Positions 12,421-63,627 of a stretch of DNA of 64,000 nucleotides are shown piece after piece. The translations under genes were made by a program, and so were the position numbers. The stretch is from Phycisphaeraceae bacterium (GTDB lineage Bacteria > Planctomycetota > Phycisphaerae > Phycisphaerales > UBA1924): positions 3,575,649 through 3,639,648 of the forward strand of contig CP075368.1 of NCBI GenBank assembly GCA_019454185.1. Direction: 5' to 3'. The number at the start of each line of letters is the position of its first letter. The first letter of the stretch is position 1. Below the pieces are notes generated by a model. It searched no databases, was not told the DNA's origin, and was given only the letters and a program-made list of their open reading frames with translations.

Positions 12421-13761
12421 TTACTTCAGAAGCCGCTCCAGATAGTGGATATCCACGCCGCCCTTGCGGAAGTCAGCGTTCTCCATCAGGCGCTGGTGCA
12501 GCGGGATCGTCGTCTTGATCGGGCCGACATTGAACTCGCGGAGCGCGCGGGCCATGCGGTTCATGCACTGCTCGCGATCGTCGGCGTGGACGATCAGCTT
12601 GCCGATCATCGAGTCGTAGTTCGGCGGCACCGTGTACCCGGTGACGACATGCGTGTCCAGGCGGACTCCCGGGCCGCCCGGCGGCTCGAACGTCGTGATC
12701 CGTCCGGCGCACGGCATGAAGTTCTTGTCGGGATCCTCGGCGTTGATGCGACACTCCATCGCGTGCCCGCGGATCTCGATGTCCTTCTGCTTGTAAGGCA
12801 GCGGCTCGCCCGACGCGACGAGGATCGACATCTTGACGATGTCGACGCCCGTGATCATCTCGGTGACCGGGTGCTCGACCTGCACGCGCGTGTTCACCTC
12901 GAGCATGTAGAAGTTCTGCTTCTCGTCCATCAGGAACTCGACGGTCGCAGCCCCCGAGTACTCCGCGGCCTTGATGAGCCGCGCCGCGGCCTCGCACGCG
13001 GCATCACGCTTCTTGCGGTCGATCAGCGGGCCGGGGGCCTCTTCGATGAGTTTCTGGTGGCGGCGCTGCGTGGAGCAGTCGCGCTCAAACAGGTGGATGG
13101 CGTGCCCATGCTTGTCGCCGAGGCACTGGACCTCGACGTGGCGGGCATGCTCAAGGAACTTCTCGATGAAGACCGCGCCGTTCCCGAAGGCGGCAAGGGC
13201 TTCCTGGCTGGCGATGCGGAGGTTGGTGCGGAGGGTCGCCTCGTTGTGGCAGACCTTCATGCCGCGCCCGCCACCGCCGGCAGAGGCCTTGATGATCACC
13301 GGATACCCGATCTCGGCGGCGACATTGACGGCCTCTTCCTCGTCCTCGATCGCGCCCTCCGAGCCGGGGAAGATCGGAACCTTCGCGGCCTTGGCCGTCC
13401 GCTTGCACTCGACCTTGTCACCGAGCTTCGCCATCGCCTCGGGAGAGGGGCCGATGAACTCGATCTTGCAGTCGCGGCAGATCTGCGCAAAGTCGGCCCG
13501 CTCAGAGAGGAAGCCGTAGCCGGGATGGATGGCGTCGACGTCGGCGATCTCCGCCGCAGCGATGATCTTGGGGATGTTGATGTACGACTCGCGCGCCGGA
13601 GGCGGGCCGATGCAGATCGCGCGATCGGCGAGCTTGAGGTACGGCGCGTCCTTGTCGGCAGTGGAGTACACGCAGACGGCTTCGACGCCGAGCTCGCGGC
13701 AGGCACGGATGATGCGAAGGGCGATCTCGCCGCGGTTGGCAATGAGGATGCGTCTAAACAT
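12421..13761 (-). CDS. accC: Acetyl-CoA carboxylase, biotin carboxylase subunit
   Basis: 446 aa, full length. It carboxylates biotin on AccB using ATP and bicarbonate, the first half-reaction of malonyl-CoA synthesis. Seen: MFRRILIANRGEIALRI at the N-terminus, the glycine-rich ATP-grasp loop KASAGGGGRGMKV, the catalytic EVNTRVQVEHPVTE segment and a biotin-carboxylase C-domain ending in HYLERLLK. In the usual arrangement accB directly precedes accC; here the two are separated by about 480 bp holding a four-helix-bundle gene between inverted repeats. The ATG lies three bases from the end of the repeat array, with no evident Shine-Dalgarno sequence, so the array sits in the translation initiation region. 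Confidence 0.97.
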   Translation of the reverse strand: MFRRILIANRGEIALRIIRACRELGVEAVCVYSTADKDAPYLKLADRAICIGPPPARESYINIPKIIAAAEIADVDAIHPGYGFLSERADFAQICRDCKIEFIGPSPEAMAKLGDKVECKRTAKAAKVPIFPGSEGAIEDEEEAVNVAAEIGYPVIIKASAGGGGRGMKVCHNEATLRTNLRIASQEALAAFGNGAVFIEKFLEHARHVEVQCLGDKHGHAIHLFERDCSTQRRHQKLIEEAPGPLIDRKKRDAACEAAARLIKAAEYSGAATVEFLMDEKQNFYMLEVNTRVQVEHPVTEMITGVDIVKMSILVASGEPLPYKQKDIEIRGHAMECRINAEDPDKNFMPCAGRITTFEPPGGPGVRLDTHVVTGYTVPPNYDSMIGKLIVHADDREQCMNRMARALREFNVGPIKTTIPLHQRLMENADFRKGGVDIHYLERLLK

Positions 13762-13763
13762 TC

Positions 13764-13803
13764 AGTGACGGAGTGACGGAGTGACACAGTGACGGAGCGA
13801 AAG
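13764..13803 (+). repeat. 8-bp tandem repeat array, accC-side arm of the inverted pair
   Basis: Five units: AGTGACGG, AGTGACGG, AGTGACAC, AGTGACGG and a degenerate AGCGAAAG at the inner end. It is inverted relative to the array at 14199-14246. The degenerate inner unit is matched on the other side by CTTTCACT (7 of 8 complementary), which suggests the two arms are ends of one element. In the acc transcript the arms could pair into a long stem enclosing the four-helix-bundle gene. Confidence 0.9.
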
Positions 13804-13828
13804 GCACGCCGTCCCGGGGTCCACGTCC

Positions 13829-14197
13829 TTACTCTCGCTCCTTGTCTTCGAGACTGCGGATCAGTCCTTGGATGACTCGATCGGTTTCTGCAACGAGGTC
13901 AATGATGCTCTGGTGCGGCTGGGCCAAGCGAAGGCGAGATACGAGTTCGAGCTGGGTGCTGACTTCGGCAACAGATCCGCGTGCGACACGCAGAGAGCGA
14001 AGAAACTCAGCGGGCGTCCCGCGTCCGTAGCCCTCTGCGATGTTGGATGGGATTGATACCGCCGCGCGACGAAGCTGGCTCCGCAGACCAAATCGTTCAC
14101 TCTCCGGCAGGGAATCAACGAAGCCGTACATCATCTCGGCGAGTTCCATTCCTCGCTGCCAGCCGATGATGTCTCGATAGCTCCGGATGCTTCCCAC
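13829..14197 (-). CDS. Four-helix-bundle protein (23S rRNA intervening-sequence type)
   Basis: 122-residue all-helical protein. Seen: IIGWQRGMELAEMMYGFV, then LRSQLRRAAVSIPSNIAEGYGR, the signature of the four-helix-bundle family (TIGR02436, 23S rRNA intervening-sequence protein) known from intervening sequences in 23S rRNA genes. Biochemical function is unknown. The GTG start at 14197 directly abuts an 8-bp repeat array, and the Shine-Dalgarno-like GGAG comes from that array. It lies between accB and accC on the same strand, so it is transcribed within the fatty-acid operon. It resembles an inserted cassette rather than an acc gene. No rRNA is nearby. Confidence 0.88.
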   Translation of the reverse strand: MGSIRSYRDIIGWQRGMELAEMMYGFVDSLPESERFGLRSQLRRAAVSIPSNIAEGYGRGTPAEFLRSLRVARGSVAEVSTQLELVSRLRLAQPHQSIIDLVAETDRVIQGLIRSLEDKERE

Positions 14198-14198
14198 T

Positions 14199-14246
14199 CT
14201 TTCACTCCGTCACTCCGTCACTGTGTCACTGTGTCACTGTGTCACT
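14199..14246 (+). repeat. 8-bp tandem repeat array, accB-side arm of the inverted pair
   Basis: Six units: CTTTCACT, CCGTCACT twice, then GTGTCACT three times. It is inverted relative to 13764-13803. The array overlaps the accB stop codon at one end and touches the start codon of the four-helix-bundle gene at the other. Confidence 0.9.
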
Positions 14247-14730
14247 ACGGCTTGACCAAAAACAGCTTCTGCCCGAACTCGACCGCGTCGCCGTTCTTGA
14301 CCAGCACGCGCTCGATCGTTCCCGAGACCTCGGACTTGATCTCGTTGAACACCTTCATCGCCTCGACGAGGCAGACGACCGAGCCGGGGCCGACCTGCGA
14401 GCCGACCTTCGCGAAGGGGGGGGAGTCCGGGTTCGAGGCGGAGTAGAACGTCCCGACCATCGGGGACTCGATCGCCACCAGGCCGGCGTCGGAGGAGGGG
14501 GCCGAGGAGCCACCCGGTGCCGCCTGTCCGGGTGCCGATGCCGGGATCGCCATCGGCATCATCATCTGAGGCGTCATCATCTGAGGCGTCATCATGTGGG
14601 GGGGGAGTTGGACGCCAGACTGGCCGCGCTTCAGAACGACGGCCTCGTTCTCATCGCGAAGTTCCAGTTCTGTGAGACCGTTGTCGGTCATCAATTGGAC
14701 CAACTCGGCTAACTTCTTCATGTCGATCAT
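14245..14730 (-). CDS. accB: Acetyl-CoA carboxylase, biotin carboxyl carrier protein
   Basis: 161 aa from ATG 14730. It carries the biotin that shuttles CO2 between AccC and the carboxyltransferase. Seen: N-terminal MIDMKKLAELVQLMTDNGLTELEL, a flexible Met/Pro/Ala/Gly-rich linker (about 50-88), and the C-terminal biotinyl domain with the lysine in VEAMKVFNEI. An alternative start is the ATG at 14721 (MKKLAEL). The stop codon TAG overlaps the first unit of the 8-bp repeat array that begins the insertion before accC. Confidence 0.95.
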   Translation of the reverse strand: MIDMKKLAELVQLMTDNGLTELELRDENEAVVLKRGQSGVQLPPHMMTPQMMTPQMMMPMAIPASAPGQAAPGGSSAPSSDAGLVAIESPMVGTFYSASNPDSPPFAKVGSQVGPGSVVCLVEAMKVFNEIKSEVSGTIERVLVKNGDAVEFGQKLFLVKP

Positions 14731-22567: not shown

Positions 22568-22621
22568 TCCAGCATGGTGTGTGAGTGAGGCAAAGAGAAC
22601 GCAGAGGACGCAGGGGTTCTT

Positions 22622-22650
22622 GAACGCGAAGATCGCGAAGGTCTCGAAGG
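22622..22650 (+). repeat. Left arm of inverted repeat around the GxxExxY gene
   Basis: Three 9-bp units of the form NNCGCGAAG: AACGCGAAG, ATCGCGAAG, GTCTCGAAG. The first 20 bases (22622-22641) are the exact reverse complement of 23109-23128. The arm ends just before the Shine-Dalgarno sequence and start of the enclosed gene. Confidence 0.92.
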
Positions 22651-22658
22651 AAGGCGAT

Positions 22659-23150
22659 GTGAATGAGCCGCTCGACAACTCAGGGGCTTTCCGGAAGGAG
22701 TTGCCCGCCGATCTTGAGCGGATCGCGCACACACTGATTGGTGCCGCGATTGAGGTTCATCGCGAGCTTGGCCCCGGGTTGCTTGAATCCGTTTATGAGG
22801 AGGCTCTCGTGCATGAACTTTGCACACGGGGCCTGCGAGCACAGAGGCAAGTTGCGCTGGACGTTGTATACAAGGGCGCGGTGATCAAGGGGCAGCGGCT
22901 CGACCTAGTCGTGGAAGGACTGATTGTTGTGGAACTGAAGGCCATTGCAAAGCTGGCGGACTTGCACGGAGCCCAGTTGCTGTCATACCTGCGAGCGGCT
23001 CGTTTGCCACTCGGCTTGTTGTTCAACTTCAATGTGATGGTCCTTCGTGACGGTATGAGGCGAGTTCTCAATGAGCGTGCCATAGAGACTTTCTCTCCTC
23101 TTGTTGTCCCTTCGCGATCTTCGCGTTCTTCGCGTTCAGGAATGGATTGA
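22659..23150 (+). CDS. GxxExxY protein (PD-(D/E)XK nuclease-like fold)
   Basis: 163 aa. Seen: HRELGPGLLESVYEEAL with the family motif G-L-L-E-S-V-Y at 40-46, and a PD-(D/E)XK-like core RLDLVVEGLIVVELKA (Asp82, Glu92, Lys94), matching the GxxExxY family (TIGR04256 / PDDEXK_3). Biological function is not established. GTG 22659 follows GAAGGAAGG; a longer form from GTG 22581 would translate the left repeat. The last residues (SRSSRSSRSGMD) are encoded by the right repeat arm, and the stop overlaps the DUF58 ATG at 23150. The gene thus interrupts the moxR/DUF58/VWA operon as a cassette bounded by a perfect 20-bp inverted repeat. Confidence 0.88.
   Translation: MNEPLDNSGAFRKELPADLERIAHTLIGAAIEVHRELGPGLLESVYEEALVHELCTRGLRAQRQVALDVVYKGAVIKGQRLDLVVEGLIVVELKAIAKLADLHGAQLLSYLRAARLPLGLLFNFNVMVLRDGMRRVLNERAIETFSPLVVPSRSSRSSRSGMD
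23109..23140 (+). repeat. Right arm of inverted repeat around the GxxExxY gene
   Basis: Units CTTCGCGAT, CTTCGCGTT, CTTCGCGTT. Bases 23109-23128 are the exact reverse complement of 22622-22641. The arm lies inside the 3' end of the GxxExxY frame, and the CAGGA after it serves as the likely Shine-Dalgarno sequence of the DUF58 gene. Confidence 0.92.
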
Positions 23151-26199: not shown

Positions 26200-26865
26200 T
26201 CAGGCCCGCATGACCAGGATCTCGTCAAGTGGCTTCCGCGTGATGTCCGGCACCACACAATCCTCCGATGCATAGCCGATCGGGATGAGCAGGTACGGCC
26301 GCTCATGCTCGGGCCTGCCCAGAATCTCTCCGAGAAACTTCATCGGGCTCGGCGTATGCGTCAGCGTCGCCAGCCCCGCATGGTGCGCCGCCGCGAGGAG
26401 CATCCCGACAGCGATCCCGACACTCTCGTTCACGTAATACACCTGCCCTCCCTCATCCGTCTTCATCATCTTGAAGACCACGATCAGCCAGGGCGCGATC
26501 TCCAGAAAGTCCTTGTTCTCATCCGTGCCGAAGGGTGCAAGATCGGCCAGCCATTCGGGCGGCGCGATCCGCCCGTAGAACTCCCGCTCTTCCTGCTCCG
26601 CCCCTTCGCGGATCTTCCGTTTGAGGGCCGGGTCCGACACCGCCACGAATCGCCACGGCTGCTTGTTCGCGCCCGACGGTGCGCTCCCCGCGGCACGGAC
26701 AACCCACTCGATCGTCTCGGCCGAGACGCTCCGATCGCTGAACATCCGGACTGAGCGTCGGCGGCTTATCACCTCGTAGAACGAACGCGCCGCCCGCTCC
26801 GGCGTCTGATCGGGCTTGAACGGGGTGTGAGGTAGATGGTTCGGGGGAAGCGCCACGGGCATCAT
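26200..26865 (-). CDS. Nitroreductase-family flavoprotein (iodotyrosine-deiodinase-like)
   Basis: 221 aa, cytosolic, FMN-dependent fold. Seen: the FMN-phosphate motif [14 protein letters not shown] near the N-terminus, [22 protein letters not shown], and the late [21 protein letters not shown] and [18 protein letters not shown] blocks. These blocks, including the active-site lid region, resemble bacterial homologues of iodotyrosine deiodinase more than classic NfsB. Substrate unknown. Divergent from the large secreted protein at 26965. Confidence 0.87.
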
Positions 26866-26964
26866 CTCCGGCTTCGGGGGTGCAGATCAGAATGAGCGTA
26901 CCGAACACCGTCCTACGGTGCGTGCGATGCACGACCGGGCCGCAACCGGCCGATAGATGGTCTG

Positions 26965-31353: not shown

Positions 31354-31359
31354 CTGGAC

Positions 31360-31485
31360 AGTGACACAGTGACACAGTGACACAGTGACACAGTGACACA
31401 GTCTGACGATATCATCTAGATCTCCGTCACTCCGTCACTCCGTCACTCCGTCACTCCGTCACTCCGTCACTCCGTCACTCCGTCT
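31360..31485. repeat. Inverted 8-bp repeat arrays forming a hairpin between lexA and ispD, no gene inside
   Basis: Five AGTGACAC units (31360-31399) and eight CTCCGTCA-type units (31422-31485, the last ending in CT) face each other across 22 bases. The units are the same family and orientation as the arrays around the four-helix-bundle gene at 13.8-14.2 kb. GTGAC pairs with GTCAC in every unit, with about two mismatches per eight. The last unit touches the ispD stop codon. It may act as a bidirectional transcription end for both genes. Confidence 0.88.
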
Positions 31486-63427: not shown

Positions 63428-63595
63428 GCTTCCTGCATGCCGCGGTGGACGGCTCAGCGATCGCCTGACTGAGCCCGGCAACACGCCAGTTCGTAGGCAA
63501 GTCTTGCACTCATCGTGCATCAGCTCGATGACCGCCCCCTTTGCCCCCTCCGCCCCTTCCTGCCTCCGCGGCTCCTGCCTTATGCCTTCCCCACT

Positions 63596-63627
63596 CTGTC
63601 ACTGCGTCACTTCGTCACTCCGTCACT
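63596..63627 (+). repeat. Single-sided 8-bp repeat array
   Basis: Four degenerate units ending in GTCACT: CTGTCACT, GCGTCACT, TCGTCACT, CCGTCACT, then a run of T. Same family as the arrays at 13.8-14.2 kb and 31.4 kb, but without an inverted partner nearby. Confidence 0.75.

Follow-up and report, generated by a model that had tools for sequence, protein, structure and literature searches.

In REP/RAYT systems, one small gene, which encodes a Y1 HUH transposase, lies between inverted repeats, and gene-less copies of these repeats are dispersed in the genome. The intervening sequence (IVS) in the 23S rRNA of Coxiella burnetii has a length of 428 nt, encodes the protein S23p, carries three to four tandem heptamers (GACAGAT) in front of its open reading frame and was shown to be excised by RNase III (PMC4990558). 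Dispersed heptamer arrays have been described in Xanthomonas (GGGAATC, with 70-75 convergent pairs per genome) and Nostoc (GGGGA(C/T)T) (PMC4692102) as well as in Beggiatoaceae (TAACTGA; PMC4679880). A four-helix protein related to the PF05635 family, Avd, belongs to the diversity-generating retroelements (PMC10053308), and PF05635-type genes have been reported in cas loci (PMC3936711). The protein family, the rRNA intervening sequences and the heptamer arrays are already known; in the open-licence literature, which is weak evidence of absence, we found no paper that links either PF05635 genes or GxxExxY genes to short arrays at their flanks, and the papers on the Xanthomonas, Nostoc and Beggiatoaceae arrays (PMC4692102, PMC4679880) do not connect the PF05635 gene to them.

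Here, we analysed a PF05635 gene that is bracketed by inverted 8-bp arrays between accB and accC in a 64,000-nucleotide stretch of contig CP075368.1, hereafter the window (Table 1). We consider it likely that this segment is a small mobile element consisting of one gene and two inverted-array ends, related to the rRNA intervening sequences and using operon junctions as safe sites. Like the 23S IVS, it encodes a protein of the family that bears the name of that element (S23p/23S IVP), is of similar size and sporadic distribution, and has complementary ends forming a stem around the open reading frame. Unlike the IVS, it lies between protein genes and not in an rRNA gene, and PF05635 elements have arrays as arms on both sides, dispersed gene-less copies, and filled and empty sites with 5-bp duplications. 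None of the 182 analysed PF05635 loci matched the 23S gene of its own genome. Because the element works like an IVS but the rRNA location was looked for and not found, we regard it as an IVS-like variant. PF05635 elements share 7-bp tandem units and an intergenic position with the heptamer arrays of Xanthomonas, Nostoc and Beggiatoaceae. Gene-less copies of the terminal repeats are dispersed in the genome as in REP/RAYT systems (58 matches here), whereas the protein is a helical bundle with no Y1 HUH domain and the units form 7- or 8-bp tandem arrays. In contrast to insertion sequences and MITEs, for which a known transposase is encoded or ancestral, none was found here, and unlike a diversity-generating retroelement the accB-accC element consists of one gene plus arms with no reverse transcriptase nearby.

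Table 1. Positions of the accB-accC element, its neighbours and related features in the window
Feature	Position	Strand	Basis or remark
Whole element (arm, PF05635 gene, arm) between accB and accC	13762..14246	-	break points of the alignment with same-genus G067 at 13761 and 14246
5' arm (gene sense), tandem 8-bp units AGTGACAC/AGTGACGG	14195..14246	-	
Four-helix-bundle gene, PF05635/TIGR02436, 122 aa	13829..14197	-	profile match
3' arm (gene sense), inverse 8-bp units	13764..13803	-	
accB, biotin carboxyl carrier protein, upstream neighbour	14245..14730	-	TIGR00531
accC, biotin carboxylase, downstream neighbour	12421..13761	-	TIGR00514
Gene-less inverted pair, unit class of the accB-accC element (ACAGTGAC x5.6, CTCCGTCA x7.9)	31358..31484	.	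RNA fold z = -3.95
Solitary array, unit class of the accB-accC element	63592..63627	-	unit matches
GxxExxY gene (PF13366, PD-(D/E)XK family) inside inverted 9-bp arrays	22581-23150	+	arms 22617-22650, 23109-23142

The original prediction, made from the letters of the window, described a gene between inverted 8-bp arrays that had settled in an mRNA operon, and the units, the coordinates and the profile matches of the gene and of both neighbours bore this out. The left array has the limits given there, while the right arm, which had been placed at 14199-14246, actually starts at 14195. Five units make up the left array (AGTGACGG, AGTGACGG, AGTGACAC, AGTGACGG and AGCGAAAG), and the inverse units of the right arm read CACTCTTT CACTCCGT CACTCCGT CACTGTGT CACTGTGT CACTGTGT CACT. 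The two arms are 83-93% complementary across 29-41 nt, and their innermost units correspond as had been noted (AGCGAAAG and CTTTCACT, the reverse complement of CTTTCACT being AGTGAAAG). From 14195, the right arm overlaps the GTG start of the PF05635 gene through the inner unit AGTGAAAG, followed by AGTGGGAA. The arms had also been expected to reach into the neighbouring genes, and the outer end of the right (5') arm indeed overlaps the accB stop codon (14245-14247), with 2 bp separating the outer end of the left (3') arm from the accC start codon. The product, which had been assigned to the protein family of the 23S intervening sequences, matches PF05635 with E=6e-30, above the curated cut-off. 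Structures of relatives have been solved (2gsc and 2rld), and R, S, N, E and R are invariant within and around the motif GxxRxxxSxxxNxxE. Profile searches returned PF05635 as its sole domain match, with no known nuclease or transposase domain and no Y1 HUH transposase encoded by the element gene.

The pattern AGTGACNNAGTGACNNAGTGAC matched the 3.8-Mb genome 58 times compared to 5 times for the reversed control, in clusters dispersed across the genome, and an equally strong flanking inverted repeat was present at only 2.4% of 419 window positions; because of these two results, we do not attribute the accB-accC arms to chance. In the predicted RNA fold, the arms form a stem that encloses the gene (z = -2.98, with 1/100 shuffles equally good), in agreement with the folding that had been proposed. 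The window's genome encodes two further PF05635 genes, one flanked by inverted 7-bp arrays of the unit TCGGCAT and the other by short CCAAAGAT/TTGGCCCT repeats. The gene-less pair at 31358-31484 adjoins two genes, one per side, and is 97 bp shorter in G067, a length difference which indicates that the arrays alter their length in place.

PF05635 genes were collected from 100 genomes of the bacterial family, 66 of which have one, and 102 loci were scored. A broad sample of 80 named loci of many phyla (79 scored) takes in, by record titles, Bacteroidota, Cyanobacteria, Pseudomonadota, Clostridia, Acidobacteria, Gemmatimonadetes, CPR bacteria and one archaeal MAG. The arm score compares the 220 bp preceding the gene with the reverse-complemented 220 bp that follow it, with a threshold of 28, and flanks taken from different loci (cross-paired) served as control. 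The association between gene and arms extended across phyla: the threshold was reached by 88% of the 102 family loci (5.5% cross-paired) and by 84% of the 79 broad loci (4% cross-paired), compared to 0/29 for accC genes. In a divergent PF05635 clade, 80% of 20 loci reached 28 at a higher cross-pair rate of 13%. Approximately 12-16% of the PF05635 loci are without clear arms.

The repeat unit is locus-specific in sequence and differs between elements, and its period was 7 or 8 bp in 155 of 156 matching loci. In 149/153 loci, the arm on the 5' side of the gene is the G-rich one. When the period was mapped onto the protein tree, 17 changes were counted, compared to 44 on average and never fewer than 38 after shuffling, and loci have the period in common in 91-100% of cases if their proteins exceed 60% identity and otherwise in about half. 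Arm similarity correlated with protein identity overall (Mantel rho 0.14) and within the family set below 70% identity (rho 0.27), with 0/500 permutations in both cases. Because this correlation was absent within the broad loci taken alone, we base the claim that unit and protein belong together on the family set and the period. The element span has a median of 481 bp (5-95% 426-605). Judging neighbours from the longest open frames, we found the gene co-directional with them in 76 of the 91 loci whose neighbours share a direction. In 93/154 loci, a long upstream frame has its stop codon no more than 12 bp from the arm, compared to 6/131 and 4/96 at shifted positions, a count that is somewhat inflated because the arrays themselves can contain stop triplets. 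An exception to the usual co-direction is L325 (1498-1866) on a Nostoc edaphicum plasmid, in which the PF05635 gene lies between the genes for the two ribonucleotide reductase subunits, in the opposite orientation.

Arrays of this kind might instead be host-made hairpins growing at operon junctions, either to stabilise messages, as attenuators or through slippage, with the PF05635 gene lodged between them as a passenger or regulator. Gene-less arrays do outnumber genes with arms, the array at 31358-31484 does change its length in place, and the accB-accC stem does touch the accC start. However, we consider host-made hairpins quite unlikely because the polarity of the arms is fixed relative to the gene, the period is inherited with the protein, the element span is uniform, and clean empty sites lack the entire unit. 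Polarity, heritable period and filled and empty sites support the view, already put forward in the original prediction, that the arms and the gene are the ends and the body of one element.

Direct comparison of related sequences revealed such sites. The same-genus genome G067 has a PF05635 element of approximately 547 bp that is absent from the window's genome, in which the two flanks adjoin each other to within 1 bp and the empty counterpart is an operon junction of the form TGA-4 nt-ATG. Among Nostocales plasmids that are approximately 97% identical, L327/L333 are filled and L330-L332 are empty; the insert has GTAAT on both sides, which is present once in the empty site and spans the stop codon (by eye). 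TTCTA is likewise duplicated in L328/L342, filled, compared to the empty L341/L343, with a 1-bp difference beside it (by eye). Derivatives were also found: at the L326/L336 site, which is empty in L335 and L337, L340 (1318-1579) has gene-less arms, and for the L327/L333 site, L334 (1245-1378) retains one arm and a truncated PF05635 gene. No clear target duplication is visible in three other filled/empty pairs, the L326 and L323 plasmid sites and L203, and 5-bp duplications are clear at two plasmid sites only. The L001 site in the same-genus genome was rejected as an empty site since a different stretch of approximately 675 bp is present there. A search of phages gave no match.

The accB-accC junction was read in 83 genomes of the family. 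It is short in 39 of them (<85 bp, minimum 11), has a gene-less gap of 85-230 bp in 32 and contains a PF05635 gene, always in the operon direction and with differing units, in 10; two further genomes have a long junction with no scored gene. A gene present in every relative with no arms, which would have spoken against the predicted element, was not the pattern observed. In G034, the junction gene is present and the arms are not clear. Clear inverted repeats (score of at least 20) were found in 17 of the 32 gene-less gaps (53% compared to 10.9% cross-paired and 0.9% shuffled). We found no close relative in which the position of the window's own insert is cleanly empty; G067, with approximately 90% DNA identity, has a different, gene-less 163-bp pair with a 9-bp unit at the exact insert point. 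Sister genomes differ in junction state within the genera g1, g3 and g51, and the PF05635 proteins of the junction fall into at least two groups on the protein tree. Because units, states and protein groups differ, the junction appears to have been colonised repeatedly and not to carry one inherited insert.

That the insert goes back to one ancestral functional insertion, vertically inherited and regulating the AccB:AccC ratio, would fit the partial clustering of site labels on the protein tree (6 changes compared to 9.7 when shuffled) and the occupation of the junction in many genera, always in the operon direction. We rejected this explanation as highly improbable because units and periods differ among genera and even between two same-genus genomes, the protein groups at the site are distant, sister genomes are in different states, and many genomes have the short junction. 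A 392-bp accB-accC gap in L077 (G003) contains the remains of a GAGACGG-type array and possibly a decayed PF05635 frame.

For a mobile element of this kind, we propose that entry into the accB-accC junction would have occurred at the accB stop codon, with the gene reading with the operon. Because the protein has no known transposase domain, it is proposed to bind its own unit and hold the ends together: the four-helix protein would recognise the repeat unit of its own element, keep the two arms joined as a hairpin or synapse, and drive or recruit a staggered insertion, by a putative chemistry, that duplicates approximately 5 bp; it might cut DNA itself or bring in a nuclease of the host. Internal deletion could then leave gene-less array pairs, perhaps mobilised in trans. 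Arrays of AGTGACNN occur in 16 of the 100 family genomes, and the genomes in which a gene with AGTGAC-type arms was found (G000, G029, G050, G060 and G078, and G010 by coordinates) are all among these 16, a co-occurrence that is partly circular because the arms themselves match the pattern. In G010, G060 and G078, AGTGACNN arrays are located on other contigs too, and other genomes have such arrays with no matching gene found. Action in trans on gene-less copies would be in keeping with this co-occurrence. At the RNA level, the arms would fold as a stem whose processing we infer by analogy with the rRNA intervening sequences, and RNase III-type processing of the accB-accC stem, as for the Coxiella IVS, is plausible. 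With such a stem, the insert may be tolerated in the host message or shed from it, as is the case for rRNA intervening sequences, and it might conceivably shift the AccB:AccC ratio, as the original prediction suggested.

Reverse transcription is another conceivable route of movement, in which the four-helix protein would play the part of Avd and the reverse transcriptase would be provided in trans, given that PF05635 resembles Avd of the diversity-generating retroelements (PMC10053308) and that the arms would give a stable RNA. This appears unlikely to us from the distribution of the reverse transcriptase domain RVT_1, which does not support such a dependence. It was detected in only 20/100 family genomes, some of which are drafts and in which reverse transcriptases outside RVT_1 escape the search, and in none of G051, G080, G091, G050, G010 and G009, each of which has 6-9 PF05635 genes. 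In the window's genome, the RVT_1 matches at 910895 and 1502906 are megabases from the element at 3589519.

Beyond the accB-accC junction, the elements may constitute an unrecognised class of prokaryotic transposable element in many phyla, in which a four-helix-bundle protein recognises inverted 7- or 8-bp arrays, transposase chemistry of a known kind and a reverse transcriptase are both lacking, and stop-codon operon junctions are used as sites. Its special cases and remains would then be the rRNA intervening sequences and some of the dispersed heptamer arrays, and GxxExxY nuclease genes with 8-11-bp arrays would form a parallel class; for this wider reading, we see the balance as even. If it is true, a very widespread gene family whose function is unknown would gain a biological role, the rRNA intervening sequences would be tied to the heptamer repeat arrays, and such genes inside operons (nrd and plasmid transfer genes; cas loci, PMC3936711) would be explained as passengers and not functional partners. 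It would also caution against calling such genes Avd, Cas or ribosomal proteins from their context, and it poses the question of how a helical protein of approximately 120 residues without a known active site would move DNA.

The arms of GxxExxY genes are a second lead, analogous to but separate from the PF05635 claim. Among the GxxExxY loci of the family, 29/31 reached an arm score of 28, at a cross-pair rate (20%) that is higher because of a core common to the loci; many of the arms have the common core C[AG]C[AG]GAG with a spacing of mostly 8-10 bp. The GxxExxY genes of the family score in two groups, a high-scoring multi-copy group, which the arm survey covered, and a lower-scoring group that has approximately one copy in each genome and could represent a host gene. 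Where the window carries its GxxExxY element, a different GxxExxY-like frame, flanked by CGCGGAGGA-type arrays of its own, is present in G067 (L093/L094, approximately 26330-26880 of the joined stretch), which indicates that this junction also turns over. Within accB itself, positions 14555-14599 contain a 15-bp in-frame tandem repeat (GGCGTCATCATCTGA), which in G067 is shorter by one 15-bp copy.
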